From NCBI GenBank assembly GCA_003609755.1, contig AP017991.1:3241501-3305500 (forward strand): a DNA stretch of 64,000 bases, read 5' to 3'. This stretch comes from Planktothrix agardhii NIES-204 (lineage in GTDB: Bacteria; Cyanobacteriota; Cyanobacteriia; Cyanobacteriales; Microcoleaceae). Shown here piece by piece: positions 20,984 through 37,075 of this stretch; the stretch's first letter is position 1; every line of letters begins with the position of its first letter. The position numbers were made by a program, and so were the translations under genes. Below the pieces are notes generated by a model. The model made no database searches. It was not told where the DNA came from and worked only from the letters and a program-made list of their open reading frames with translations.

Positions 20984-23900
20984 TTATCCTAGAACAAAAT
21001 TACTCTTACCTATCAATCTACTATCGACTCCCAACAGTTCAGCCAACTGTTGTTGACTACTGGCTATTTTAATTAGGGTGGAGTCGTTAAAAGAGGTGAT
21101 TTGTAACTGTTCAAAAGTTAAACCTCCGGTTAAAGCGATAATATCCGCTCCGTTAGTAAAGTCGGTAATTAGCTCATTCCCAAAACTACTGGCCAGATAG
21201 AAGCGGTCATTACCCGCACCACCAGTTAGGGTGTCATCGCCCTCGGCTCCAACTAACCAGTCATTACCCTGACCTCCGGTTAAGATATCGTTGCCTTCTC
21301 CGCCATCGAGGGTATCATCACCTTGATCACCCGAGAGCAAATCATTGCCTTCGCTGCCGTCGAGAAGGTCATTGCCCTGACCGCCATAAATCATGTCGTC
21401 TCCTGAGTTACCCGAAATGGTGTCATTGGCTTCGTTACCAGAGAGAAGATCATCACCTTCGTTTCCTTCTGTTATGTCTTCTCCTTTGTTTCCCAAGATA
21501 GTATCATCTCCGTTGCCACCTTTAATTAAGTCATTCTCTTGACCTCCAAAGAGTTCATCCTCTCCATCACCTCCATCAATCAGGTCTTCTCCTAGGTTGC
21601 CGTTAATCCAATCATTCCCGCCATTACCCGTAATGATGTCGTTACCCAGGTTCCCGTAGAGTTCATCTGCTCCATCATTTCCGATGATTTGGTCGTTATC
21701 TTTGCCACCGAGGACGGTATCGTTACCTTCTAAGGCAAAGATGACATTGGCTTCTGCTGTACGTGATATGGGTTCATTGTCGGTAACCTTGAGTTCTTGG
21801 GTAGGAAATTCGATGGTTGTTATAAAATTGGTGGAGTCATAGATATCCGCACTGCCATTGAATACCGGAGTTTCGGGAATTGGTTCCGGTGTCGGTGCAA
21901 CTGTTGGAACTGGTGTCGGAGTTACCGTTGGAACTGGTGTCGGAGTTACCGTTGGAACTGGTGTCGGAGTTACCGTTGGAACTGGTGTCGGAGTTACCGT
22001 TGGAACTGGTGTCGGAGTTACCGTTGGAACTGGTGTCGGAGTTACCGTTGGAACTGGTGTCGGAGTTACCGTTGGAACTGGTGTCGGAGTTACCGTTGGA
22101 ACTGGTGTCGGTGCAACTGTTGGAACTGGTGTCGGTGCAACTGTTGGAACTGGGGTCGGAGTTACGGTTGGAACTGGGGTCGGTGCAACTGTTGGAACTG
22201 GTGTCGGTGCAACTGTTGGAACTGGTGTCGGTGCAACTGTTGGAACTGGGGTTGGAGTTACGGTTGGAATTGGGGTTGGAGTTACCGTTGGAATTGGGGT
22301 TGGAGTTACCGTTGGAATTGGTGTGGAAGCTACATTAGTAACTGCCACATCTGAAGCATCAAAACCACTATAATTAGCATCGGTACTGGTAGCAGCCGCC
22401 GTAACAATATTATAGGCAATATCTCCATCATCTACGCTATCATCTACTCCAGTAACGGTGACGGTTTGTGCCACATTCCAATTAGCCGATGTGAAGGTTA
22501 AACTGGTTTTGTCTATCGTACCTTCGGCGGTGTTACTGCTAGTTAATGGGATGGTGACATTGGCTGTTGGTTGGCTATTTAAAACTACTGTAAATGTGGC
22601 ATTTCCCCCGGCTTCTGTTGTGGTTAAACCTGTGGTGGGTGTAACTGTAATGCCTTTGGTATCGTTATCAGTATTAGTAACTGCCACATCTGAAGCATTA
22701 AAACCACTATAATTACTATCGGTACTGGTAGCCGCGGCCGTAACAATATTGTAGGCAATATCTCCATCATCTACGCTATCATCTACTCCAGTAACGGTGA
22801 CGGTTTGTGCCACATTCCAATTAGCCGATGTGAAGGTTAAACTGGTTTTATCTACTGTACCTTCGGCGGTGTTACTGCTAGTTAATGGGATGGTGACATC
22901 GGCTGTGGGTTGGCTATTTAAAACTACTGTAAATGTAGCTTTTCCCCCGGCTTCTGTTGTGGTTAAACCTGTGGTGGGTGTAACTGTAATGCCTTTCGTA
23001 TCATTATCAGTATTAGTAACTGCCACATCTGAAGCATTAACACCACTATAATTAGTATCGGTACTGGTAGCCGCGGCCGTAACAATATTGTAGGCAATAT
23101 CTCCATCATCTACGCTATCATTTACGCCGGTAACTGTGACGGTTTGGGGAGTATTCCAGTTAGTTGCTGTGAAGGTTAAACTGGATTGATTTACCGTACC
23201 TTCGGCGGTGTTACTGCTAGTTAATGGGATGGTGACATCGGCTGTGGGTTGGCTATTTAGAACTACTGTAAATGTAGCTTTTCCCCCGGCTTCTGTTGTG
23301 GTTAAACCTGTTGTTGGTGTAACTGTAATGCCTTTGGTATCGTTATCGGTATTAGTAACTGCCACATCTGAAGCATCAAAACCACTATAATTAGCATCGG
23401 TACTGGTAGCAGTAGCCGTAACAATATTATAGGCAATATCTCCATCATCTACGCTATCATTTACGCCGGTAACTGTGACGGTTTGGGGAGTATTCCAGTT
23501 AGTTGCTGTGAAGGTTAAACTGGTTTTATCTATTGTACCTTCGGCGGTGTTACTGCTAGTTAATGGGATGGTGACATTGGCTGTTGGTTGGCTATTTAAA
23601 ACTACTGTAAATGTAGCTTTTCCCCCGGCTTCTGTTGTGGTTAAACCTGTGGTGGGTGTAACTGTAATGCCTTTGGTATCATTATCAGTATTAGTAACTG
23701 CCACATCTGAAGCATTAACACCACTATAATTAGTATCGGTACTGGTAGCCGCCACCGTAACAATATTGTAGGCAATATCTCCATCATCTACGCTATCATC
23801 TACTCCGGTAATGGTGACGGTTTGGGGAGTATTCCAGTTAGCAGTGGTGAAGGTTAAACTGGTTTTGTCTATTGTACCTTCGGCGGTGTTACTGCTAGTT

Positions 23901-26900
23901 AATGGGATGGTGACATCGGCTGTTGGTTGGCTATTTAAAACGACTGTAAATGTGGCATTTCCCCCGGCTTCTGTTGTGGTTAAACCTGTGGTGGGTGTGA
24001 CAGTAATGCCTTTGATATCGTTATCGGTATTAGTAACTGCCACATCTGAAGCATCAAAACCACTATAATTAGCATCGGTACTGGTAGCCGCCACCGTAAC
24101 AATATTGTAGGCAATATCTCCATCATCTATTAAATCATCTACTCCCGTAACTGTGACGGTTTGCGCCACATTCCAATTAGCTGCGGTGAAGGTTAAACTG
24201 GTTTTGTCTATTGTACCTTCGGCGGTGTTACTGCTAGTTAATGGGATGGTGACATCGGCTGTGGGTTGGCTATTTAGAACTACTGTAAAATTAGCCGTAC
24301 CTCCCGCTTCGGTGGTGGTTAAACCTGTGGTGGGTGTGACAGTAATTCCTGGATTATCATTAATCGTCACACTTTGATTAGTAGTAGTTCCTAATGCGAT
24401 TCCTGTGGATGGGTTGCTAATTGTTAAAGTAGCTGTTTCCGTACCTTCCGCAAGTAAATCATTATTAACTGTAATGGTTACTTGTCCGGTATTACTCCCA
24501 TCTGGGATAGTTATTTGAGTAGGAATAGTACCAGTAAAGTCAGCCACACTAGCAGTACCCGTTAATGCTAAATCAAGGGTTTGAGCGCCGACAACATTAC
24601 CTTCAGCAGTAGCGGTCAAGGTAATAGCAGTTGCCCCGGCTTCACTAGCAGTAGTTGGGCTGGCAGTCAGGTTAACTTTTGGTGCGGGAATGGTAATATT
24701 AAAAGTAGCTATGTCGGAAAGATCGACACCACCATTGGCCGTACCGCCGTTATCTTGCAGTTGCACACTAACGGTAGCAGTACCGGGTTTACCACTGGGA
24801 GTGTAGGTCAGCGTGCCATCAGTTGCTACACTGGGTTGAGCGGTAAATAAGGTATTGTCGGTGTTAGTAACGGTGTAGTTGCTAACAGTTTGAGTTGATT
24901 CATTGGCGGGGCCGAAGATAACAGTATTTGCCCAATTACTAACGCTTTGAGCCGTACTTGTCCAAGCTGTTAGGATTTGGTTGCCAGCGTTACTAAAACT
25001 GGGTTTGTCATTAACTGCGGTAACAGTGATGGCTGCGGTGTCGGTGAGGGCGCTGAAGACTGTGCTACCGCCGTTGGTGCTAGTGTCAGCAGTGCTGCCA
25101 TTAGCACCCGCCATTTGATCCCAAGCGCGGAAGGTAATGCCGTTGGTGACAGTGCCGTTGTAGTTGGGAGTTGGTTGGAAATAAATGCGGGTATTGGCAT
25201 TAGCTGCCAGTAGGCGAGCATTGGTATCGGATACTGCGCCCAAAGCAGTCCAAGTAGTACCGCCATCTATGGTGTAAAACCAACTGCCGTTAGTGGTGTC
25301 GGCCCCGGTGATGGCTACCCCTGCGACTGCGCCAGTGTCGGAGTCGGTGATGTTTGTACCGATAGCTGCAATGGATGAGATGAGGTTGCCGACTGCGCCA
25401 GTGGGAACATCTGCATCTTCTAGGATGGGAGTGAGGGTGACAACGGTATCGGCAAGAACGGGGGCGGTATTAAGAAGAATCGTGCCATAAACATCCTTAT
25501 TGTCTTGGTTAGATCCTTGACCGTTGGCGGGAGTGTTAGCAGCTGGAGTGTTAGCTTGGTTGCCAGCGTTATTGCCGGTAAAGGTGGCCCCTAATGAGGT
25601 GACAGTAGGGAGTGCGGTGGGCATTCCTTGGTCGTTGCCATTGGTGTTGGTGAGGGATGTCATGGCAAATATTGCCCCACCTTTGCCTTGGCCGGGGTTG
25701 GTTTCACTACTACTGGGACTGGTTCGGGCGCCATTACCGCCTGTGGCAGTGTTGTTACTAAAGGTTGCGTTGTTTAGAGTCAAAGATCCTTGGCGAATAA
25801 AGATGGCACCCCCAAGGCCAGCGCCACCGCCGCCGGATCGGCCGTTAGTGCCAATGCCGTTGCCACCAAACCTGCCACCGGTACCAGTGGTGTTTATGAC
25901 ACCACCACCACCGCCACCGTAGCCGCCGTTGCCACCCCCGCCGGGGCCCCAGCCCCCACCGCCGCCGAAGCCGCCGTTGCCACCACGTTGGCCGCGACCA
26001 GCACCGCCGCCGCCGCCGAACCCCCCTGCGCCCCCGACGGTCTGCGGATCGTTTCTGATGGTGCCACCTCCACCGAAAAGGCCAATGCCACCACCGTAGT
26101 TGCCGTTGCCGCCATAGCCGCCGCCAGTTCCACTGCCATTGGCAAACAGACCGCCGCCACTGCCACCAGATGTGGTACTACCGAACATCCCGCCGCCACC
26201 ATAGCCGCCACTATAGGCGCCAGCCCCAGTACCGCCGATCGCGGTATTGTTACTAAAGGTGACGTTATTCACCCCCACAGTGCCATTGTAGATGAATAAA
26301 CCGCCACCCATGCCAGCGCCACGACCGCCGTCGTAAGCAGCTCCTCCTTGTGCCTTACTGTTGGTGACTGTCATGTTGGAGAAATTCACGGTTCCCGACT
26401 TGACGAAGAAGGGACGAAAAGCATTATCGCCACTGACAGTATGGTTATTGCCAATAAAATCAATATTGCTGTTAACTAGGGTCTTCATTACCCCTTTAAC
26501 AGTAACGTTTGTTTGTAGGGTAATAGTGTCATCGCCTGCGGCCTTATTCGCGTCTAAAATGGCTTTGCTTAATGTACCTGCTAGAGTGCCAGTGCCATCA
26601 TCATTTGCTACCGTGACATCAAAGTTAGCCAGTGTATAGTCATAATCTGCCATCGCCTCTTGATTAAAGGGTACGGTGGCTTCTATTTTGCCCGTTACTA
26701 TTTCTAAATCCCAGTCGCCACCTAATGCTTGATTTCCGGTTAAGTCGTTAGAGGCAGCGACATCTGCCCCGGTAATTTCACTTAATCGTTCAACAAAATT
26801 CTTGCCAGTTTCTCCGGCGGCTACGTCGCATCCATACAATAGGATATCGCCATTTTCTGTGAGGGCATTTCCCCACTGTTTTAGCTGAGTATTAAAATTT

Positions 26901-27145
26901 TCTATATCATTCCCATTCAGTACATCAGTACCGAGTTTTAAACTGCCTTCGCTACCGTGAGAAAGTATCTGTACAGATTCAATATTTTTTTGATTAGCTA
27001 AGGCATTAGTAATTTGTTCAATCCCGCTAGATATGTTATCTAAAATTACAATTTGAGCGGTATCGGCGTTATCAATTAGGCTTTGATAATCTTGTACCGA
27101 GGAGTCTACGAAAATGACTTGCTTGTTCATAGTTGGCAATTCCAT
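20984..27145 (-). CDS. Large repetitive exoprotein: DUF4347, Gly-rich region, Calx-beta-like repeats, Pro-Thr stalk, RTX
   Basis: 2053 residues. Order: DUF4347 domain (about 6-170; VIFVDSSVQDYQSLID, ILSHGSEGSLKLG, LYGCDVAAG); a Gly-rich stretch with beta-helix-like NNVTFSNNTA segments (about 270-500); cadherin-like segments; one Calx-beta domain; six consecutive copies of a 113-residue unit (GITVTPTTGLTTTEAGG...); about 19 units of PVPTVTPT/PVPTVAPT; then about 17 RTX nonapeptides (GGxGNDxL). No classical signal peptide; C-terminal RTX plus the terminal segment point to type I secretion and calcium-dependent surface display. Function is probably adhesion or surface layer, by inference. Start is ATG 27145 or ATG 27130. 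No secretion genes are nearby. Confidence 0.9.
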   Translation of the reverse strand: MELPTMNKQVIFVDSSVQDYQSLIDNADTAQIVILDNISSGIEQITNALANQKNIESVQILSHGSEGSLKLGTDVLNGNDIENFNTQLKQWGNALTENGDILLYGCDVAAGETGKNFVERLSEITGADVAASNDLTGNQALGGDWDLEIVTGKIEATVPFNQEAMADYDYTLANFDVTVANDDGTGTLAGTLSKAILDANKAAGDDTITLQTNVTVKGVMKTLVNSNIDFIGNNHTVSGDNAFRPFFVKSGTVNFSNMTVTNSKAQGGAAYDGGRGAGMGGGLFIYNGTVGVNNVTFSNNTAIGGTGAGAYSGGYGGGGMFGSTTSGGSGGGLFANGSGTGGGYGGNGNYGGGIGLFGGGGTIRNDPQTVGGAGGFGGGGGAGRGQRGGNGGFGGGGGWGPGGGGNGGYGGGGGGVINTTGTGGRFGGNGIGTNGRSGGGGAGLGGAIFIRQGSLTLNNATFSNNTATGGNGARTSPSSSETNPGQGKGGAIFAMTSLTNTNGNDQGMPTALPTVTSLGATFTGNNAGNQANTPAANTPANGQGSNQDNKDVYGTILLNTAPVLADTVVTLTPILEDADVPTGAVGNLISSIAAIGTNITDSDTGAVAGVAITGADTTNGSWFYTIDGGTTWTALGAVSDTNARLLAANANTRIYFQPTPNYNGTVTNGITFRAWDQMAGANGSTADTSTNGGSTVFSALTDTAAITVTAVNDKPSFSNAGNQILTAWTSTAQSVSNWANTVIFGPANESTQTVSNYTVTNTDNTLFTAQPSVATDGTLTYTPSGKPGTATVSVQLQDNGGTANGGVDLSDIATFNITIPAPKVNLTASPTTASEAGATAITLTATAEGNVVGAQTLDLALTGTASVADFTGTIPTQITIPDGSNTGQVTITVNNDLLAEGTETATLTISNPSTGIALGTTTNQSVTINDNPGITVTPTTGLTTTEAGGTANFTVVLNSQPTADVTIPLTSSNTAEGTIDKTSLTFTAANWNVAQTVTVTGVDDLIDDGDIAYNIVTVAATSTDANYSGFDASDVAVTNTDNDIKGITVTPTTGLTTTEAGGNATFTVVLNSQPTADVTIPLTSSNTAEGTIDKTSLTFTTANWNTPQTVTITGVDDSVDDGDIAYNIVTVAATSTDTNYSGVNASDVAVTNTDNDTKGITVTPTTGLTTTEAGGKATFTVVLNSQPTANVTIPLTSSNTAEGTIDKTSLTFTATNWNTPQTVTVTGVNDSVDDGDIAYNIVTATATSTDANYSGFDASDVAVTNTDNDTKGITVTPTTGLTTTEAGGKATFTVVLNSQPTADVTIPLTSSNTAEGTVNQSSLTFTATNWNTPQTVTVTGVNDSVDDGDIAYNIVTAAATSTDTNYSGVNASDVAVTNTDNDTKGITVTPTTGLTTTEAGGKATFTVVLNSQPTADVTIPLTSSNTAEGTVDKTSLTFTSANWNVAQTVTVTGVDDSVDDGDIAYNIVTAAATSTDSNYSGFNASDVAVTNTDNDTKGITVTPTTGLTTTEAGGNATFTVVLNSQPTANVTIPLTSSNTAEGTIDKTSLTFTSANWNVAQTVTVTGVDDSVDDGDIAYNIVTAAATSTDANYSGFDASDVAVTNVASTPIPTVTPTPIPTVTPTPIPTVTPTPVPTVAPTPVPTVAPTPVPTVAPTPVPTVTPTPVPTVAPTPVPTVAPTPVPTVTPTPVPTVTPTPVPTVTPTPVPTVTPTPVPTVTPTPVPTVTPTPVPTVTPTPVPTVTPTPVPTVAPTPEPIPETPVFNGSADIYDSTNFITTIEFPTQELKVTDNEPISRTAEANVIFALEGNDTVLGGKDNDQIIGNDGADELYGNLGNDIITGNGGNDWINGNLGEDLIDGGDGEDELFGGQENDLIKGGNGDDTILGNKGEDITEGNEGDDLLSGNEANDTISGNSGDDMIYGGQGNDLLDGSEGNDLLSGDQGDDTLDGGEGNDILTGGQGNDWLVGAEGDDTLTGGAGNDRFYLASSFGNELITDFTNGADIIALTGGLTFEQLQITSFNDSTLIKIASSQQQLAELLGVDSRLIGKSNFVLG
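21880..22330. repeat. 24-bp coding minisatellite, about 19 copies
   Basis: On the minus strand it encodes the octapeptide PVPTV(T/A)PT inside the large exoprotein. Units are nearly identical; a T/A switch in the sixth residue and a V/I switch in the second occur in blocks, suggesting growth by unequal exchange or slippage. It probably forms an extended stalk between the Calx-beta-like repeats and the RTX domain. Confidence 0.9.
22330..24355. repeat. Six tandem 339-bp coding repeats
   Basis: Each unit encodes 113 residues of the exoprotein beginning GITVTPTTGL and ending near SDVAVTNTDND. Units differ by only a handful of residues (for example TADVT/TANVT, SANWNVAQ/ATNWNTPQ), and the variants recur in mixed combinations between units, which suggests shuffling or gene conversion. 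All are multiples of three, so copy change keeps the frame. Confidence 0.92.
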
Positions 27146-27246
27146 AATTGCTGAAATCCTTAATATCTATTGTTTATGTTTAAGTTTGGTTGGAGTTTCA
27201 AACCCACCCTCAAAGATGAAGTTCTCTTAATCCGAAAACTTGTGAT

Positions 27247-27351
27247 TAAGTAGGTGGTCATAATTAAAGTTAAAATCCTAAATGCTGTAAGCCCTTTAGA
27301 ATGAGGATTTTAGCTTTCGGTTTGTTGACGTTATTTATGCCCGCCTACTTA
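27247..27351. mobile_element. MITE-like element, taagtagg termini
   Basis: taagtaggtgg at 27247-27257 faces ccgcctactta at 27341-27351 (one mismatch). The same terminal motif bounds a second element at 48737-48865, so it is a family and not a chance palindrome. It lies in the 300-bp gap (27146-27445) after the exoprotein start; the rest of that gap is the palindromic repeat at 27364-27455 and I see no gene in it. Confidence 0.55.
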
Positions 27352-27363
27352 CAGCCGAGGTTA

Positions 27364-27455
27364 GATTCCCCTAAATCATCCTCCCCCCGTGTACGGGGGG
27401 GTAAAGGGGGACTTGGAGATCCTGTGTCCCCCTTTTTAAGCAGGGTTAGGGGGGA
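27364..27455. repeat. Nested palindromic repeat overlapping the sulfotransferase stop
   Basis: A central perfect palindrome ccccccgtgtacgggggg (27383-27400) is enclosed by outer arms gattcccctaa and ttaggggggatc. Its right arm supplies the last codons and stop of the sulfotransferase gene, which ends at 27446. The same gtgcac/gtgtac core flanked by C and G runs occurs at 15243, 45838 and 58634. Confidence 0.75.
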
Positions 27456-28291
27456 TCATTTTTTACAGTTTCTTTCGCTTTCGCTACAATCGCACTAGCG
27501 CGGCTATTTGTAGTCTCTGTCCAAAAAGATAAACTATTAAATTGCTCAAATAAATCGGGCGGTAAAATAGTTGTTCTTGGTTTAAACTCGACTTGTGATC
27601 GCACTTGATGTAACCCTTTTGTTTGCAGTCTATTATCAAATTCTGGCTCCTGATATTCAACATTCTCGAAATCATGCTCAAAAGTATCTTCGCCCAGAAA
27701 TTGATAAATCAACGACATAGTTTTAGCCGGATTTTTGGTTAATAAATCGTAATCAACCAATAGGAGAGATGCACTCTGTTCGCTGTAGAATGCTTCCTTA
27801 AGAGCATTATAGGCATAACCCACTAAACGCGAACCTTGACTTAATGCCTCGGTGCGACTGTAGACTGTAGCCCGTTCTGCTGGATTATTAAATAACCGGG
27901 AAACATCAAAGGCGTTGCGCCGAATCAGTAGCTCAATGCTATCCATAATCCAAGCAATATTTCTGACACAGCAGATTACTTTTGCTTCGGGAAATAGTTC
28001 CAGAATTAATGGCAATTTGCTGCACCAAAGCCGATTGGTATCAAAGATGATTTCTTTTTCAACTTGCGGGTGGTAATAAGCAGAAAATATGCTCATAATC
28101 AGCGCCCGTTTTTGTTCCGGGGAAATGAATACCGAAAACTCATTGTTTTCACTCATGGCTTCCAACATTCGCTCCACTAAACCCCCCACAGGGCTAGTCA
28201 TAGCTGCATGAAACCGGGGATTTTGGCGTAGTATTGCTGCCAGTAAAGTAGAACCTGATCGTGGTAGTCCTGATATAAAGTGGGCTTTCAC
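27446..28291 (-). CDS. Sulfotransferase family protein
   Basis: 281 residues. The N-terminal FISGLPRSGSTLLAAIL (residues 5-21) is the 5'-phosphosulfate-binding loop of PAPS-dependent sulfotransferases; a 3'-phosphate-binding region is expected around AKVICCVRNIAWIMDSI (about 98-115), which places Arg and Ser appropriately. The acceptor is unknown; in cyanobacteria such enzymes act on glycans, lipids or peptides. The final residues KNDPP and the stop are encoded by a palindromic repeat, so the native C-terminus has probably been replaced. ATG 28291 is the only good start. Confidence 0.85.
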   Translation of the reverse strand: MKAHFISGLPRSGSTLLAAILRQNPRFHAAMTSPVGGLVERMLEAMSENNEFSVFISPEQKRALIMSIFSAYYHPQVEKEIIFDTNRLWCSKLPLILELFPEAKVICCVRNIAWIMDSIELLIRRNAFDVSRLFNNPAERATVYSRTEALSQGSRLVGYAYNALKEAFYSEQSASLLLVDYDLLTKNPAKTMSLIYQFLGEDTFEHDFENVEYQEPEFDNRLQTKGLHQVRSQVEFKPRTTILPPDLFEQFNSLSFWTETTNSRASAIVAKAKETVKNDPP

Positions 28292-28650
28292 TGGCTTCGG
28301 TGTTGCAATGCTTACAGGTAGAATGGTTTGTTGTTGAGTCAGTCTGGTTAGGTCACCTGAATTAATTTAAAAGGCTGTATTTATACCTTTATACAGATGA
28401 CACGCGACACTTTCAATATAAATAACCTAACAAGGTGCTTTTCGGTTGTCAATGGTTTAGCCGCTCAATGACAAATCTTTATATTTATTTGAGATATTTT
28501 ACAGAAATTATCAAAAAAGTCGCAGTGATAACGTGGCGCAGGGGCGGGTTTATGATATTATTGATTTTATGTGTTTGTGTTATAGTCAAAAAAAGTAAAT
28601 ATAAATAACCATCTGCGTTAATCTTTACTATATTATTTCCAGGTGATACT
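28292..28650. other. Intergenic region, no gene seen
   Basis: A divergent promoter region for the sulfotransferase and the first Rpn gene. It contains a gcaggggcgggttt fragment near 28538 that resembles the termini of the element at 60064-60234. No ORF or RNA gene is recognisable. Confidence 0.5.
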
Positions 28651-29640
28651 ATGAAATTTATTAATCCCAAAACAGACTACGCCTTTAAAAAAATCTTTGG
28701 TTCGGATCAAAGTCAAGATATTTTAATTAGTTTTCTGAATGCAATTGTCTATCAAGGTGAGACTTTTATCACTTCTTTAGAAATTATTGATCCCTACGCC
28801 CCCGGCAGAATTTCTGGTTTAAAAACCACTTATTTTGATGTTAAGGCTCAACTGAATAACGGCGAAAATGTATTAATTGAAATGCAGGCGTTTAATGTCC
28901 CAGCTTTTGGCAAAAGGATTCTTTATAATACGGCAAAAATGTATGTTAATCAACTGAAGTTAGGGGAAGTTTATCCAGAATTAAGAGCAGCAATTGGTGT
29001 AGCGGTGACGGATTTTATTATGTTTAATGAACATAATAAAGTCATTTCACAATTTACGCTCAAGGAAGATGAGTTACAAGTAAATTATCAACATAGTCCG
29101 TTAAAATTAGTATTTGTGGAGTTACCCAAATTTAATAAAACTCTGGAAGAATTAACAACTATTACGGATAAATGGCTTTATTTTTTACGCAAAGCACCGG
29201 ATTTAGAAGTAGTGCCAGAATCTATGTTAATTGTACCGGAAATTGAGAAGGCTTTTGCGATCGCTGATCGGGTAAACTTAAGTTTAGAGGAAGTAGATGA
29301 TTTGGAGAAACGAGAACAGTTTGAACGGGAAAGAATAGGTGCTATTGAGTTGGGTAAGGCTCAAGGGTTGGCTGAAGGGTTGACTCAAGGGCGTGCTGAA
29401 GGGCGTGCTGAAGGTATTGAAATTGGTGAACAAATTGGTGAACAAATTGGTGAACAAAGGGGTAAAATAAATTTGATTAAACGCCAATTAAAACGGCAAT
29501 TAGGTGAACTAAATCAATCAATAGAAGATAGTTTATCACAGCTAACTTCAGAGCAATTATCAGCTTTGGCTGAAGCTATTTTCGACTTTTCTAATGTAGG
29601 TGATTTATCCAGTTGGCTAGAAACTAATTGCCCTAGTTGA
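28651..29640 (+). CDS. Rpn-family PD-(D/E)XK nuclease / putative transposase, copy 1 of 3
   Basis: 329 residues. N-terminal nuclease fold: FINPKTDYAFKKIFG at the start, then Asp63 in YFDVKAQ and Glu77-x-Gln79 in VLIEMQ, the PD-(D/E)XK core as in Rpn proteins. The body to about residue 245 is virtually identical to copies 2 and 3. It then has a low-complexity linker of four-residue units (GLTQ, GRAE x2, IGEQ x2-3) and a conserved C-terminal helical tail (INLIKRQLKRQLGELNQ). E. coli Rpn proteins are toxic nucleases with separately translated C-terminal inhibitors and variable four-residue repeats. A GAGGA at about 29288 precedes an in-frame TTG at 29302, a candidate internal start. Function here is inferred. 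Confidence 0.88.
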   Translation: MKFINPKTDYAFKKIFGSDQSQDILISFLNAIVYQGETFITSLEIIDPYAPGRISGLKTTYFDVKAQLNNGENVLIEMQAFNVPAFGKRILYNTAKMYVNQLKLGEVYPELRAAIGVAVTDFIMFNEHNKVISQFTLKEDELQVNYQHSPLKLVFVELPKFNKTLEELTTITDKWLYFLRKAPDLEVVPESMLIVPEIEKAFAIADRVNLSLEEVDDLEKREQFERERIGAIELGKAQGLAEGLTQGRAEGRAEGIEIGEQIGEQIGEQRGKINLIKRQLKRQLGELNQSIEDSLSQLTSEQLSALAEAIFDFSNVGDLSSWLETNCPS

Positions 29641-29693
29641 ACATGACTGAGGTATTATCTAAGTCCCTACCTATATTATTTTCCACTAACACT

Positions 29694-30659
29694 ATGAAAT
29701 TCATTAATCCCAAAACAGACTACGCCTTTAAAAAAATCTTTGGTTCGGATCAAAGTCAAGATATTTTAATTAGTTTTCTGAATGCAATTGTCTATCAAGG
29801 TGAGACTTTCATCACTTCTTTAGAAATTATTGATCCCTACGCCCCCGGCAGAATTTCTGGTTTAAAAACCACTTATTTTGATGTTAAGGCTCAACTGAAT
29901 AACGGCGAAAATGTGTTAATTGAAATGCAGGCGTTTAATGTCCCAGCTTTTGGCAAAAGGATTCTTTATAATACGGCAAAAATGTATGTTAATCAACTAA
30001 AATTAGGGGAAGTTTATCCAGAATTAAGAGCAGCAATTGGTGTAGCGGTGACGGATTTTATTATGTTTAATGAACATAATAAAGTCATTTCACAATTTAC
30101 GCTCAAGGAAGATGAGTTACAAGTAAATTATCAACATAGTCCGTTAAAATTAGTATTTGTGGAGTTACCCAAATTTAATAAAACTCTGGAAGAATTAACA
30201 ACTATTACGGATAAATGGCTTTATTTTTTACGCAAAGCACCGGATTTAGAAGTAGTGCCAGAATCTATGTTAATTGTACCGGAAATTGAGAAGGCTTTTG
30301 CGATCGCTGATCGGGTAAACTTAAGTTTAGAGGAAGTAGATGATTTGGAGAAACGAGAACAGTTTGAACGGGAAAGAATAGGTGCTATTGAGTTGGGTAA
30401 GGCTCAAGGGTTGGCTGAAGGGATACAAATTGGTGAACAAATTGGTGAACAAAGAGGTGAACAAAGGGGTGAACAAAGGGGTAAAATAAATCTGATTAAA
30501 CGCCAATTAAAACGGCAATTAGGTGAACTAAATCAATCAATAGAAGATAGTTTATCACAGCTAACTTCAGAGCAATTATCAGCTTTGGCTGAAGCTATTT
30601 TTGATTTTTCTAGTGTAGGTGATTTATCCAGTTGGCTAGAAACTAATTGCCCTAGTTGA
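29694..30659 (+). CDS. Rpn-family PD-(D/E)XK nuclease, copy 2 of 3
   Basis: 321 residues from ATG 29694, chosen because it aligns with the start of copy 1; the frame is open 19 codons further to ATG 29637, which would overlap the stop of copy 1 by 4 bp. The nuclease core matches copy 1 (same FDVKA and IEMQ residues). The variable linker is shorter and different: GLAEGIQIGEQIGEQ, then RGEQ units. The C-terminal tail is identical apart from one or two residues. DNA identity extends into synonymous positions, so the duplication is recent or maintained by gene conversion. Transcription is probably shared with copies 1 and 3. Confidence 0.87.
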   Translation: MKFINPKTDYAFKKIFGSDQSQDILISFLNAIVYQGETFITSLEIIDPYAPGRISGLKTTYFDVKAQLNNGENVLIEMQAFNVPAFGKRILYNTAKMYVNQLKLGEVYPELRAAIGVAVTDFIMFNEHNKVISQFTLKEDELQVNYQHSPLKLVFVELPKFNKTLEELTTITDKWLYFLRKAPDLEVVPESMLIVPEIEKAFAIADRVNLSLEEVDDLEKREQFERERIGAIELGKAQGLAEGIQIGEQIGEQRGEQRGEQRGKINLIKRQLKRQLGELNQSIEDSLSQLTSEQLSALAEAIFDFSSVGDLSSWLETNCPS

Positions 30660-30712
30660 ACAGGACTGAGGTATTATCTAAGTCCCTACCTATATTATTT
30701 TCCACTAACACT

Positions 30713-31714
30713 ATGAAATTCATTAATCCCAAAACAGACTACGCCTTTAAAAAAATCTTTGGTTCGGATCAAAGTCAAGATATTTTAATTAGTTTTCTGA
30801 ATGCAATTGTCTATCAAGGTGAGACTTTCATCACTTCTTTAGAAATTATTGATCCCTACGCCCCCGGCAGAATTTCTGGTTTAAAAACCACTTATTTTGA
30901 TGTTAAGGCTCAACTGAATAACGGCGAAAATGTATTAATTGAAATGCAGGCGTTTAATGTCCCAGCTTTTGGCAAAAGGATTCTTTATAATACGGCAAAA
31001 ATGTATGTTAATCAACTAAAATTAGGGGAAGTTTATCCAGAATTAAGAGCAGCAATTGGTGTAGCGGTGACGGATTTTATTATGTTTAATGAACATAATA
31101 AAGTCATTTCACAATTTACGCTCAAGGAAGATGAGTTACAAGTAAATTATCAACATAGTCCGTTAAAATTAGTATTTGTGGAGTTACCCAAATTTAATAA
31201 AACTCTGGAAGAATTAACAACTATTACGGATAAATGGCTTTATTTTTTACGCAAAGCACCGGATTTAGAAGTAGTGCCAGAATCTATGTTAATTGTACCG
31301 GAAATTGAGAAGGCTTTTGCGATCGCTGATCGGGTAAACTTAAGTTTAGAGGAAGTAGATGATTTGGAGAAACGAGAACAGTTTGAACGGGAAAGAATAG
31401 GTGCTATTGAGTTGGGTAAGGCTCAAGGGCGAACTGAAGGGTTGACTCAAGGGCGTGCTGAAGGGCGTGCTGAAGGGCGTGCTGAAGGGCGTGCTGAAGG
31501 GCGTGCTGAAGGGCGTGCTGAAGGTATTGAAATTGGTCAGATAAATCTGATTAAACGCCAATTAAAACGGCAATTAGGTGAACTAAATCAATCAATAGAA
31601 GATAGTTTATCACAGCTATCATCAGAGCAGTTATCGGCTTTGGCTGAAGCTATTTTCGACTTTTCTAGTGTAGGTGATTTATCCAGTTGGTTAGAAACTA
31701 ATTGTCCTAGTTGA
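30713..31714 (+). CDS. Rpn-family PD-(D/E)XK nuclease, copy 3 of 3
   Basis: 333 residues from ATG 30713; an extended frame reaches an ATG-like start at 30656 overlapping the stop of copy 2. Its core is the same as copies 1 and 2. The linker has GRTEGLTQ followed by six consecutive GRAE units, then GIEIGQ, so it has the longest single-type repeat and lacks the IGEQ block. The C-terminal helical tail is retained. The 53-nt spacer before this gene is nearly identical to that before copy 2, so the repeat unit of the array is gene plus spacer, about 1.02 kb. The series ends here. Confidence 0.87.
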   Translation: MKFINPKTDYAFKKIFGSDQSQDILISFLNAIVYQGETFITSLEIIDPYAPGRISGLKTTYFDVKAQLNNGENVLIEMQAFNVPAFGKRILYNTAKMYVNQLKLGEVYPELRAAIGVAVTDFIMFNEHNKVISQFTLKEDELQVNYQHSPLKLVFVELPKFNKTLEELTTITDKWLYFLRKAPDLEVVPESMLIVPEIEKAFAIADRVNLSLEEVDDLEKREQFERERIGAIELGKAQGRTEGLTQGRAEGRAEGRAEGRAEGRAEGRAEGIEIGQINLIKRQLKRQLGELNQSIEDSLSQLSSEQLSALAEAIFDFSSVGDLSSWLETNCPS

Positions 31715-31783
31715 AATAGAATAAACTAAGAATCCACTAGCCTTTAGGTAGTGGAGTATCAATCAAAGATAACTGTGTATATT

Positions 31784-32275
31784 TTACCTATAGTTTGTAA
31801 ACTGTAATGCAGCCGGATAATCTTCTTCTTTCAGACGCTGAATTACTAATTGTAAATCATCTTTAGATTTAGCTGAAATCCTAACAGAATCCCCCTGAAT
31901 AGATGCTTGTAATTTTTTAAATTCATCTTTAATTAATTTAGTGATTTGTTTTGATACTTCTTGAGTTAAACCTTTTCTGAGTTTAATTTCCTGTCTGACT
32001 CGATTACCACTGGAAGATTCTACTTTCCCATAATCAAAAATCTTCAAAGAAAGATTCCGTTTAGCGGATTTAGTTTGCAAAATTGTATGAATTGCATCGA
32101 GGGTAAACTCGCTATCTGTATTAACTATAATCGCAGTTTCCCCTAATTCTAGGGTAGTCTTAGTATCTTTCAAATCATAACGGCTTTTAATTTCCCGTTC
32201 GGTTTGATCAACAGCATTAACTAATTCCTGGCGGTCAAAATCACTAACAATATCAAATGAATAAGTAGAAGCCAT
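31784..32275 (-). CDS. yajQ: YajQ family nucleotide-binding protein
   Basis: 163 residues from ATG 32275; a TTG at 32281 is less likely. The family signature is clear: [24 protein letters not shown] at the N-terminus, RYDLKDTKT, and the C-terminal [21 protein letters not shown]. YajQ proteins bind nucleotides or nucleic acids, and some bind cyclic di-GMP and act as transcription co-regulators. The role in cyanobacteria is not established. It is convergent with the Rpn array, 69 bp away. Confidence 0.93.
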
Positions 32276-32311
32276 AGTCAATTGTAATTATTTAATAAAA
32301 AAACTATCAGC

Positions 32312-32340
32312 GTAGAGACGTGCCAAGAGCGCGTCTGTAC
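32312..32340. repeat. Small palindrome, gtagagacg family
   Basis: gtagagacg at 32312-32320 faces cgtctgtac (one mismatch to a perfect arm) at 32332-32340, between yajQ and the DprA/LOG-like gene. Confidence 0.65.
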
Positions 32341-32370
32341 GAGTGACTGATTCAACATTGGTATTAACTA

Positions 32371-32874
32371 CTAATCCAAATAGAATAGCGTCACAATTTT
32401 GCGCTGATTTTCAGCTTCCTCACAGGTACTTAGGAGGGTGACACTATCATGGTAGGCAAAACAGATTAACTGTTGACACCGAGAAATAATCTGTTGGTTG
32501 CAAAACCCACTAGCTTCAGCTAGGGATAAATCATCACCCTTAGCATTTTCCACCACATGAATCACCTGTTCTAACTGCTGGCGGGACTCCCTAGGCTGAC
32601 GTTTCATGCTTTGGGGCAAAATTACCGTCAACAAATTGGGGTTAGCCCGCATTGCGCCTCGAATCGCCGCCGCGTTCGTTCCCGTTGAACCCGATGTAAT
32701 CAAATGATTGCCTTCTAAAACCAAGGCATAACTCATCATCTCGATCAAGTTTTGATGGGTTAGGGGAATATGGCGGGAACCCAACAAAGCAACACGCTTG
32801 GAGCCAGTTTGTTGAATGGCTGCCAATTCTTCTAAAAAGTCATCTACTTTCGGCAGATTGATAGATTGGTTCAA
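32371..32874 (-). CDS. DprA/LOG-like Rossmann-fold protein
   Basis: 167 residues. KRVALLGSRHIPLTHQNLIEMM followed by HLITSGSTGTNAAAIRGAM is the nucleotide-binding pattern of the SLOG superfamily (DprA/Smf and LOG relatives): a GSR strand-loop, then a GxxxG-type loop. It lacks the extra domains of full-length DprA, so it is a stand-alone Rossmann protein of the kind often annotated in cyanobacteria as DNA recombination-mediator-like. Whether it binds ssDNA or a nucleotide ligand cannot be told. It lies upstream of yajQ on the same strand with a palindrome in the gap. Confidence 0.7.
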   Translation of the reverse strand: MNQSINLPKVDDFLEELAAIQQTGSKRVALLGSRHIPLTHQNLIEMMSYALVLEGNHLITSGSTGTNAAAIRGAMRANPNLLTVILPQSMKRQPRESRQQLEQVIHVVENAKGDDLSLAEASGFCNQQIISRCQQLICFAYHDSVTLLSTCEEAENQRKIVTLFYLD

Positions 32875-32984
32875 GGATAATTACAAAATATAATCAGGAC
32901 AATCCTGTAGATTTTAGCAAATTCAGCGACAATTATTCTGAGTGCAACTAAAGTTTTTATCTAATTTCATTGACTGTGATTGTT

Positions 32985-34412
32985 ATGACAGCAACAACCG
33001 CCCAACCGACCTGGAATCAACAGTTTACCAGCCCCGCAACTGAGTTTCCGCCCACACCCTTACCCATTTTGTCGGGAAAAATACCCTCTGGGTTACGGGG
33101 TTCTTTATATCGTAATGGCCCAGGACGATTGGCACGGGGAGGACACCGAGTTGGACATTGGTTTGATGGAGATGGGGCAATTTTAGGGGTTCATTTCAGC
33201 GAAAAAGGGGCAACCGGGGTCTATCGTTATGTTCAAACCGCAGGCTATCAAGAGGAAGAACAAAAAAACCGTTTTATCTATGGTGGCTATGGAATGAAAC
33301 CTTCGGGAAACCTTTGGGAACGTTTTCGTAAACCCCTAAAAAATGCGGCGAATACTTCAGTTTTAGCTTTACCCGATAAATTATTGGCGTTGTGGGAAGG
33401 GGGACAACCCCATAGTTTAGATTTAGAAACCTTAGAAACCCAGGGACTGGACAACCTCCAGGGTTTAGCTGAAAATACCCCCTATTCTGCTCACCCTAAA
33501 ATTGATCCCGAAACCGGGGATATTTTTAATTTTGGGCAAATTTTGGGGCCGACTCCTGAGTTAATTTTATATCGGAGCGATCGCACGGGTAACATCAAAC
33601 AACAAAATAAAATTCCTCTGGATGGGATTTCTGCCCTGCATGATTTTGTCCTAGCGGGTGAATATTTAATTTTTGTAATTCCCCCACTGCGGTTAAAACT
33701 TTTACCCGTATTTCTTCAGTTGAAATCCTTTAGTGAAGCCCTATCCTGGCAACCCCAAACCCCCACCCAAATTTTAATAATTGATCGTCATAATTTAACC
33801 TTAGTTAATCGGATTGAAACTGAACCTTGGTTTCAGTGGCATTTTAGCAATGGTTATGTTGCAACAGATGGAACGGTTATTGTTGATTTTGTCCGATATC
33901 AAGATTTCCAAACCAATCAATATTTGAAAGAAGTTGCCACCGGAAACACTCAAACCTTAGCAAAATCGACCTTATGGCGGATGGTATTGCAACCTCAAAC
34001 GGGTAAATTACTACAATTGGAAGAACTCTGCGATCGCCATTGTGAATTTCCCTCGGTCAACCCCCAAGAAGTGGGAAAAAAAGCTCAATTTACCTATTTA
34101 TCCCTTCATAAATCCGGTATTAATCCGGCGGTCGAAATGTTTGGCACAATTGGACGTTTTAATCATCAAACCCAAACCTTAACTACCGCCAATTTAGGGG
34201 AAAATCGTTATCCGATGGAACCTTTATTTGTTCAAGATCTCGATCATCCTCAACAGGGTTGGGTTTTAACCATTGTTTATGATGCTCGGCAAAATTCCAG
34301 CGAAGTTTGGATATTTGATGCCCAATCTTTAAACACGGAACCTGTTTGTCGGTTAGGATTACCCCATGTAGTTCCGAATGGATTTCATGGAACTTGGAAA
34401 CCCGCGACTTAG
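32985..34412 (+). CDS. Carotenoid (apocarotenoid) cleavage oxygenase
   Basis: 475 residues from ATG 32985 (a TTG at 32970 extends by five). RPE65-family seven-bladed propeller. The four iron-ligand histidines fit SAHPKID, LHDFVL, WHFSNGY and the C-terminal FHGTW, and GSLYRNGPGR and HWFDGDGAI are family blocks. It should cleave carotenoids or apocarotenals oxidatively at a double bond to retinal-like products; the substrate cannot be told. Length and lack of a membrane anchor match cyanobacterial apocarotenoid oxygenases. It stands alone, 90 bp before leuS. Confidence 0.93.
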   Translation: MTATTAQPTWNQQFTSPATEFPPTPLPILSGKIPSGLRGSLYRNGPGRLARGGHRVGHWFDGDGAILGVHFSEKGATGVYRYVQTAGYQEEEQKNRFIYGGYGMKPSGNLWERFRKPLKNAANTSVLALPDKLLALWEGGQPHSLDLETLETQGLDNLQGLAENTPYSAHPKIDPETGDIFNFGQILGPTPELILYRSDRTGNIKQQNKIPLDGISALHDFVLAGEYLIFVIPPLRLKLLPVFLQLKSFSEALSWQPQTPTQILIIDRHNLTLVNRIETEPWFQWHFSNGYVATDGTVIVDFVRYQDFQTNQYLKEVATGNTQTLAKSTLWRMVLQPQTGKLLQLEELCDRHCEFPSVNPQEVGKKAQFTYLSLHKSGINPAVEMFGTIGRFNHQTQTLTTANLGENRYPMEPLFVQDLDHPQQGWVLTIVYDARQNSSEVWIFDAQSLNTEPVCRLGLPHVVPNGFHGTWKPAT

Positions 34413-34501
34413 GTTTGATAATCAGGCGAAATCGGTGGGGGTATAACCTCACCAATATGTAAAAATAATAAACAAATAAGAAAACGTATCCGGCACAAAG
34501 T

Positions 34502-37075
34502 ATGGCTGTGGAGTCTCGATATCATCCTGCATCCCTCGAACAAAAGTGGCAACAAACCTGGGAAGAACAGGGGTTGTATAAAACCCCAACCGATAAAAAC
34601 AAGCCCAAATTTTACGCCCTATCCATGTTCCCCTATCCGTCGGGGAGTCTACACATGGGTCACGTTCGCAATTACACTATTACCGACGTGATCGCCCGAC
34701 TCAAACGGATGCAAGGCTATCGTGTCTTACATCCGATGGGGTGGGACGCCTTTGGACTCCCTGCCGAAAATGCCGCCATTGACCGAGGAATTCCTCCGGC
34801 GGAATGGACATATCAAAATATTGCCCAAATGCGGGAACAACTGCAAAAGTTAGGATTCTCCATTGATTGGGAAAAGGAAGTTACCACCTGTTCCCCGGAA
34901 TATTACCGTTGGACACAATGGCTGTTTTTACAATTCTATAAGTGCGGACTTGCCTATCAAAAAGAAGCCGCGGTGAATTGGGACCCAATTGATCAAACGG
35001 TGCTTGCTAATGAACAAGTCGATAATGAGGGAAGATCTTGGCGGTCTGGAGCTATTGTTGAACAAAAATTATTGCGTCAATGGTTCCTAAAAATTACCGA
35101 CTATGCTAACGAATTGCTCAACGATTTAGAGCATTTAAACGGCTGGCCAGAACGGGTTAAATTAATGCAGGCTAACTGGATCGGACAATCCATTGGGGCA
35201 CAGTTAGAATTTCCGATCATTGGGTTAGATGAAAAGATTGCTGTTTTTACCACCCGTCCCGATACGGTTTATGGGGTTTCCTATCTCGTATTAGCCCCAG
35301 AACATCCCTTAGTTGCTCAGGTGACAACCCCGGAACAAAAAGCCGCCGTAGAAGCATTTATTCAAGAGGTAAAAAACGAAAGTCAAACCGATCGCACCTC
35401 AGAAGATAAACCGAAACGCGGCGTTCCTACGGGGGGAAAAGCCCTTAATCCTTTTAATGAAGAAGAAATTCCGATTTGGATTGCGGATTATGTTTTATAT
35501 GGATATGGAACAGGCGCGGTCATGGGAGTTCCGGCCCATGATCTGCGTGATTTTCAATTTGCCACTCAATACGATTTACCCATCAAACAGGTGATTGTTC
35601 CCGATGATGCGGATAATGATAATGAGGAAAATGATCGGATCACAACGGCCTATACGGGGACGGGAATTTTAGTCGAATCCTGTAATTTTAGTGGGGAAAA
35701 TTCCGAACACGGAAAACAAGCAATTATTAACTATGCAGAAGATGAAGGATATGGCAAAGGAATTATTCAATATCGCCTCAGAGATTGGTTGATTTCCCGT
35801 CAACGCTATTGGGGAACTCCGATCCCAATTATTCACTGTCCGAATTGTGGGGCGGTGGCTGTTCCCGATCAAGATTTACCCGTAAAATTGCCGGAAAATG
35901 TAAAATTTAGTGGTCGAGGTTTATCTCCTTTAGCCCAATTAGAAGATTGGATTAATGTGCCTTGTCCGAGTTGTGGAACTCCTGCTAAACGGGAAACCGA
36001 TACCATGGATACTTTTATTGATTCTTCTTGGTATTATTTGCGTTATCCTGATGCCAAAAATGATCAACAAGTCTTCAATCCAGCTATTACTAATGATTGG
36101 ATGGGGGTAGATCAATATGTGGGCGGAATTGAACACGCCATTTTGCATTTATTATATTCTCGATTCTTCACAAAAGTTGTGCGCGATCGCGGATTATTAC
36201 ATTGTAAAGAGCCCTTTGAAAAGTTATTAACTCAAGGGATGGTACAGGGAATTACCTATAAAAACCGCACCACAGGTAAGTATTTTTCCGCTTCCCAAGT
36301 TAGTCCGAGTAATCCCCAAGATCCGACCACGGGAGAAAGGTTAGAAGTCTTCTATGAGAAGATGTCTAAATCTAAATATAATGGGGTTGATCCGTTAGAA
36401 GTGATGGGTAAATATGGGGCTGATACCGCCCGAATGTTTATTCTATTTAAAGCTCCTCCTGAGAAGGATTTAGAATGGGATGATGCCGATGTTGAGGGAC
36501 AATTTCGCTTCTTAAATCGGGTTTGGAGAATTGTTACTGAATTTGCTGAAATTACGACTTCTAAACCTAAGAATCGAGAATTAACTAAAGTCGAAAAAGA
36601 CTTAAAACGGGCGATTCATACGGCTATTAAAGAAGTCAGCGAGGATTTAAACGGAGACTATCAATTTAATACGGCGGTATCTGAATTGATGAAACTCAGT
36701 AATGCTTTATCAGAAGCGAATTGTCAGGAGTCTATTGTTTATTCTGAAGGCATTGAAACCCTGTTAAAATTATTAGCTCCCTTTGCCCCCCATATCGCGG
36801 AGGAATTATGGCAATTGATTGGAAAAACGGGTTCAATTCATACTCAAATATGGCCTGAGCATGAGCCAGAAGCCTTGGTAGTTGATGAAATTACCTTAGT
36901 GATTCAAATTAATGGAAAAACCCGCGGCACGCTGCAAGTCCCAGCAACCGCCAATCACCAAACTTTAGAAGAATATGCCCGAAATTCTGAAGTTAGTCAA
37001 CGTCATATTGGGGATAAAACCATTAAAAAAGTGATTGTTGTCCCAGGAAAATTAGTTAATTTTGTGGTCGTTTAA
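34502..37075 (+). CDS. leuS: Leucyl-tRNA synthetase
   Basis: 857 residues, full length. The HIGH motif is present as [12 protein letters not shown] (about 43-54) and the KMSKS motif as [13 protein letters not shown] (about residue 620). The CP1 editing domain ([16 protein letters not shown] near 340) contains the conserved Asp used in hydrolysing mischarged tRNA-Leu. A C-terminal anticodon-binding region and a final [12 protein letters not shown] block complete the protein. Start ATG 34502. It is followed by an intrinsic terminator, so it is probably the end of its own unit. Confidence 0.98.

Follow-up and report, generated by a model that had tools for sequence, protein, structure and literature searches.

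Why would one genome keep three adjacent genes for virtually the same nuclease, each with a different run of four-residue repeats ahead of its C-terminal domain? In Escherichia coli an internal start, 8-20 residues ahead of the repeats of Rpn nucleases, also yields the C-terminal domain by itself, and this product (RpnS) inhibits the full-length toxin, an activity that is lost when the repeat numbers differ. Addition of one repeat to RpnC-S left RpnC-LS no longer counteracted, and matched repeats restored the inhibition (PMC10327210). An earlier reading made from the letters alone (the sequence-only reading), which was right that repeat mismatch affects inhibitor pairing in E. coli (PMC10327210), proposed that such an array holds several specificities side by side. 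The array discussed here lies in the window, the 64,000-nucleotide stretch of Planktothrix agardhii NIES-204 DNA that was analysed.

The three genes and their family

The triplication of Rpn nuclease genes with differing linkers described from the sequence was confirmed (Table 1), the bodies being identical in protein and the tails nearly so. Nucleotide comparison of the three genes revealed few differences in the bodies (717 nt, 239 codons; 5, 4, and 1 nt pairwise), all of them synonymous. The tails (57 codons plus stop) differ pairwise at 4, 8, and 8 nt, with one or two amino acid changes per pair. The linker consists of four-residue xxxG units and a final K or Q; 12-bp tandem arrays were detected in the linkers by TRF, and units inside one linker are often nucleotide-identical, for instance the repeated CGTGCTGAAGGG. 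The ORF-finder frames of copies 2 and 3 start earlier, at a TTG overlapping the preceding stop (TTGA); their ATG starts were adopted because they match the start of copy 1. The stop-start overlap and the short spacers suggest one transcript for copies 1-3.

Table 1. Positions in the window of the rpn copies, linkers, spacers, and candidate internal RpnS frames.
Feature	Position	Strand	Description
rpn copy 1	28651..29640	+	329 aa, 8 linker units; ATG start 28651
rpn copy 2	29694..30659	+	321 aa, 6 linker units; ATG start 29694
rpn copy 3	30713..31714	+	333 aa, 9 linker units; ATG start 30713
Linker copy 1	29368..29466	+	LAEG LTQG RAEG RAEG IEIG EQIG EQIG EQRG K
Linker copy 2	30411..30485	+	LAEG IQIG EQIG EQRG EQRG EQRG K
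Linker copy 3	31430..31540	+	RTEG LTQG RAEGx6 IEIG Q
Spacer 1-2	29641..29693	+	53 bp; in-frame open from TTG overlapping copy 1 stop
Spacer 2-3	30660..30712	+	53 bp; 1 difference vs spacer 1-2
Candidate internal RpnS frame, copy 1	29302..29640	+	TTG codon 218 after GAGGAA; prediction
Candidate internal RpnS frame, copy 2	30345..30659	+	TTG codon 218; prediction
Candidate internal RpnS frame, copy 3	31364..31714	+	TTG codon 218; prediction

The identity of the locus as Rpn nuclease genes in tandem is well supported. The family assignment made in the sequence-only reading holds, since all three proteins exceed the cut-offs of TIGR01784 and, as curated by Pfam, of PDDEXK_2 (PF12784) and DUF4351 (PF14261). 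Scores against the Rpn model TIGR01784 / COG5464 are 141.8, 145.0, and 144.6 bits (NCBIfam cut-off 52.1), and for copy 1 the E values are 1.7e-50 for PF12784, 3.9e-17 for PF14261, and 3.5e-41 for TIGR01784. D63 and E77-x-Q79 of the PD-(D/E)XK nuclease core are invariant across 29 aligned homologues; their counterparts, by pattern, are D63 and E82-x-Q84 of RpnA (PMC5350276). E. coli RpnA-E and plasmid RpnP2 likewise combine a PD-(D/E)XK-type nuclease with a C-terminal DUF4351-type domain preceded by a variable number of four-residue repeats, DUF4351 being named for separate RpnS genes, and the E. coli rpn arrays are also attributed to tandem duplication (PMC10327210). The Planktothrix array, known from sequence alone, differs in that its body belongs to PF12784 rather than PF04754, its candidate internal start is TTG, and it brings together in one genome three adjacent copies that share the nuclease protein exactly but not the repeats.

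AlphaFold predicts for copy 1 a single helix (residues 212-284) that covers the linker, with a pLDDT there of about 58-69, and for the RpnS part of copy 1 alone a first helix of residues 2-59. The predicted linker helix agrees with the published lengthening of the first RpnS helix by inserted repeats (PMC10327210). Fold searches of the predicted structures gave no secure match, none at E<=0.001; the RpnS fold (PDB 7TH0) was absent among the fold matches listed, and no sequence match to 7TH0 was found either. Weak FliH matches, below cut-off, run across the linker. The glycine (GxxxG) repeats of FliH/YscL are also variable-number xxxG repeats predicted to be helical, but these proteins serve flagellar/type III export and carry no nuclease, so that the likeness is one of repeat composition (PMC2674601). 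In EcoR124I/II the number of four-residue TAEL repeats alters specificity as well, although in that type I restriction enzyme the repeat sets the DNA spacing (PMC10327210). Repeat variation and tandem rpn arrays have each been published in the E. coli study (PMC10327210); what is new here is their combination, array members that differ in their repeats not having been found described in a literature search of mostly freely readable papers and of the article text of PMC10327210.

Linkers, bodies, and tails in related genomes

Planktothrix rubescens PCC7821 (LR882958.1) possesses three tandem copies at a locus (L052) syntenic with the window array, which aligns to window 28359-36000 at 97.3% over 7,645 columns, and two copies at a second locus. 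DUF4351 matches in G082, a genome marked as conspecific with that of the window, coincide in position with both PCC7821 loci. The linkers of the PCC7821 triple array hold 5, 5, and 7 units, those of copies 1 and 2 being nucleotide-identical, with identical tails too. The sequence-only reading had named identical linkers in all copies of a relative as speaking against it; in PCC7821 copies 1 and 2 share a linker and copy 3 does not, and linker diversity is not always kept. Between the window and PCC7821, copies 1 and 2 have 8 and 6 vs 5 and 5 units; copy 3 has 9 vs 7 (two RAEG apart), with a tail identical across 171 nt and one body difference. The array therefore changes within a species, not always towards diversity.

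The wider comparison of close relatives comprised 21 full-length copies, partial copies and genes fetched twice under another locus being excluded. Linker length is 3 modulo 12 nt in every one of them. A linker is shared by one of 21 within-genome pairs, and linkers differ in nine of the ten within-genome pairs with six or fewer body differences. Tychonema bourrellyi has three copies, two in tandem, whose bodies differ at 0-1 of 717 nt. There the body contains one segregating site and the tail 24 of 156 (p=9.6e-15 vs the between-genome ratio); the corresponding numbers for the window genome are 6/717 and 13/156 (p=1.1e-5), in a test that treats sites as independent. Per-site divergence in the tail exceeds that in the body about 110-fold in Tychonema and about 10-fold in the window genome, and the contrast persists when synonymous changes only are counted (2.8e-9 and 0.0013, respectively). 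Taken as whole genomes, PCC7821, PCC 11201, and USR001 show no significant contrast (p 0.21, 0.17, and 0.26), and a reverse pattern, bodies apart and tails alike, is seen in some PCC7821 pairs, e.g., r52_1/r51_1, and in the L118 and L102 pairs 1-2. Discordance between body and tail trees was not established with the short tail (AU p 0.29 and 0.39). Because the tail changes are largely synonymous, recombination history is the likely cause, rather than selection on tail residues; the bodies have likely been homogenised, with the tails lying beyond the converted stretch or swapped separately.

Near-identical copies with differing linkers recur in other genomes. DUF4351 is present in at least 55 of the 59 genomes of the relatives sample. 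Arrays L100-L119 are a non-exhaustive choice from adjacent matches among the matches listed, 16 fetched loci were scanned under one common rule, and every reported match was listed in a scan of 12 few-contig genomes. L101 consists of eight near-identical copies (four full-length, four short) with 8, 3, 4, 11, 9, 10, 7, and 5 units, and L102 of six (four full, two short) with 4, 8, 9, 7, 14, and 11, the counts being all distinct in each; both are of a different Rpn type, which matches PF04754, where Pfam places E. coli RpnA, at a borderline level. The 12-genome scan added L120, with 13 copies (5, 5, 3, 2, 10, 6, 10, 8, 1, 6, 3, 9, and 1 units), and L121, with eight (7, 6, 5, 2, 5, 6, 4, and 1), in both of which some counts are repeated. 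Same-count pairs were scored array by array, except in the Planktothrix set, where the genome was the unit, and the expectation was obtained by permuting counts among arrays of the same type. The observed 0/43, 7/106, and 2/21 compare with 2.36, 9.07, and 3.13 expected (per-stratum P 0.042, 0.23, and 0.37), and the combined 9/170 is fewer than the expected 14.6 (P=0.018, post hoc). Since the test is post hoc, and the two genomes that supply L101/L120 and L102/L121 are congeneric, this is a lead, not proof. The proposal of several specificities side by side is consistent with the distinct counts in the window, L101, and L102 and with the mild deficit of same-count pairs, whereas PCC7821, where two of three linkers are identical, and the repeated counts of L120 and L121 speak against its strict form. 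As a separate observation, genome G017 carries both L120 and L101, of different Rpn types, and 21 DUF4351 matches in total; the C-terminus of each L101 member is of one of two kinds, VSNSPSISDN-like or ESHQPE-like.

A candidate internal start for RpnS

Codon 218, from which the candidate RpnS frames are predicted to begin, is TTG in every one of the 21 close copies and is the sole always-TTG column among the 22 conserved Leu columns of the window family. SD-like pairing before it exceeds the synonymous-shuffle mean in all ten close representatives; 95% of the shuffles are beaten in three of these ten and in 2 of 38 deeper homologues. No common internal start site was found in the deeper homologues (38 scored; three without repeats skipped). 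Of 11 array families belonging to other Rpn types, 10 have an ATG accompanied by an SD-like sequence 7-18 residues ahead of the repeats; the signal beats 95% of shuffles in one of 29 genes, the survey having taken 4/8 copies of L101, 6/13 of L120, and 4/8 of L121.

At L104 and L106 a short RpnS-like gene follows the full one and starts at what corresponds to the full gene's internal ATG; the short and internal ATGs share the context AGAGAGGA(C/G)ATT, and a TGA is situated just upstream of one of them in each locus. These two loci offer the best direct evidence, by sequence likeness and in another Rpn type, for a putative internal start. Their stand-alone RpnS genes have 4 and 8 units vs 8 and 7, respectively, in the adjacent full gene. 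With differing counts the stand-alone RpnS should, by the E. coli rule, not inhibit the neighbouring full gene, which is unexpected if it serves that neighbour. L100 contains three short RpnS-like genes in a row, 350 bp apart, with 4, 4, and 3 units vs 3 in the adjacent full-length gene.

Competing explanations and genomic setting

We put at about even chances the reading of the locus as an Rpn toxin-antitoxin array in which the nuclease is kept alike, the linker and C-terminal part are varied, and the copies are insulated from one another. Each gene would give rise to a full-length nuclease (RpnL) and to its own C-terminal antitoxin (RpnS), made from the internal start before the linker and pairing via the linker helix. 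Tandem duplication and gene conversion would keep the nuclease bodies alike, while 12-bp units would be gained and lost and the linker-plus-tail half exchanged less often or separately, and the copies would thereby acquire linkers differing in length and kind. Each copy would then probably be held by its own RpnS and act separately from its neighbours, because unmatched repeats do not pair under the E. coli rule. That linker differences entail functional separation would follow from the E. coli experiment by analogy (PMC10327210); we infer an internal RpnS in this family, the insulation, the nuclease activity, and a part in phage defence.

The main rival, neutral slippage with concerted evolution, accounts for much of the pattern and is a serious possibility that we disfavour only weakly. 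The 12-bp units would behave as a minisatellite that slips and recombines fast, the bodies would be homogenised by conversion and purifying selection, helix length would matter little, and the differing linkers would be a by-product without a role. The frequent nucleotide identity of linker units, the identical linkers of PCC7821 copies 1 and 2, the mostly synonymous tail differences, and the modest, post hoc nature of the same-count deficit are all congruent with this, but one extra repeat abolishes inhibition in E. coli, so that length is not neutral there (PMC10327210). The presence of whole 12-bp units in all 21 linkers also counts against neutrality, though slippage predicts likewise.

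Rather doubtful is a length-coded repertoire, in which identical nucleases would be orthogonal by repeat count, slippage would make new "addresses," conversion would refresh the bodies, and the set as a whole would escape silencing by any one phage-borne RpnS mimic. Were the copies orthogonal, the arrays would represent natural near-isogenic toxin-antitoxin pairs differing only in repeat count, would give direct access to the evolution of pairing specificity and to the fast variation of Rpn four-residue repeats, and would offer an explanation of why rpn genes are so numerous in cyanobacteria. We regard as improbable that the extra copies are a matter of dosage or redundancy, raising the amount of nuclease and forming mixed dimers freely despite their linkers: the protein-identical bodies and the single transcript suggested by the TTGA overlap and 53-bp spacers would suit this, but the same genes would supply more RpnS along with more RpnL, and linker mismatch prevents cross-inhibition in E. 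coli (PMC10327210). Misassembly of one gene as three, against which the sequence-only reading had cautioned and which bodies about 99% identical might suggest, is scarcely credible given the syntenic three-copy array of PCC7821, the distinct substitutions borne by the copies, and the tandem copies in further genomes.

The window genome (G000; 5.08 Mb, 5 contigs) carries a fourth full rpn copy, with a 4-unit linker and followed by a truncated copy, at C1:1427041. This place is a segmental duplication, matched by window 22334-27129 at 99.5% over 4,796 bases. To the left of the window array are genes for a DUF4347/RTX-repeat protein and a sulfotransferase, the latter shortened in the second place, and to the right YajQ-like, DprA-like (weak), carotenoid oxygenase, and leucyl-tRNA synthetase genes; Pfam reveals no known defence genes among 10 flanking proteins. 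L010:1-7177 and window 22334-29831 share the duplicated DUF4347/RTX-repeat gene, sulfotransferase, and rpn array, and the second array in L010 ends after 47 codons of its second rpn copy. The neighbouring 2,053-aa gene contains tandem repeats of 24 bp (18 copies) and 339 bp (5.9 copies) at window 21888-24350. Soon after copy 3, at window 31739-31760, there is an inverted repeat (CCACTA...TAGTGG) that may be a terminator but lacks a T run.
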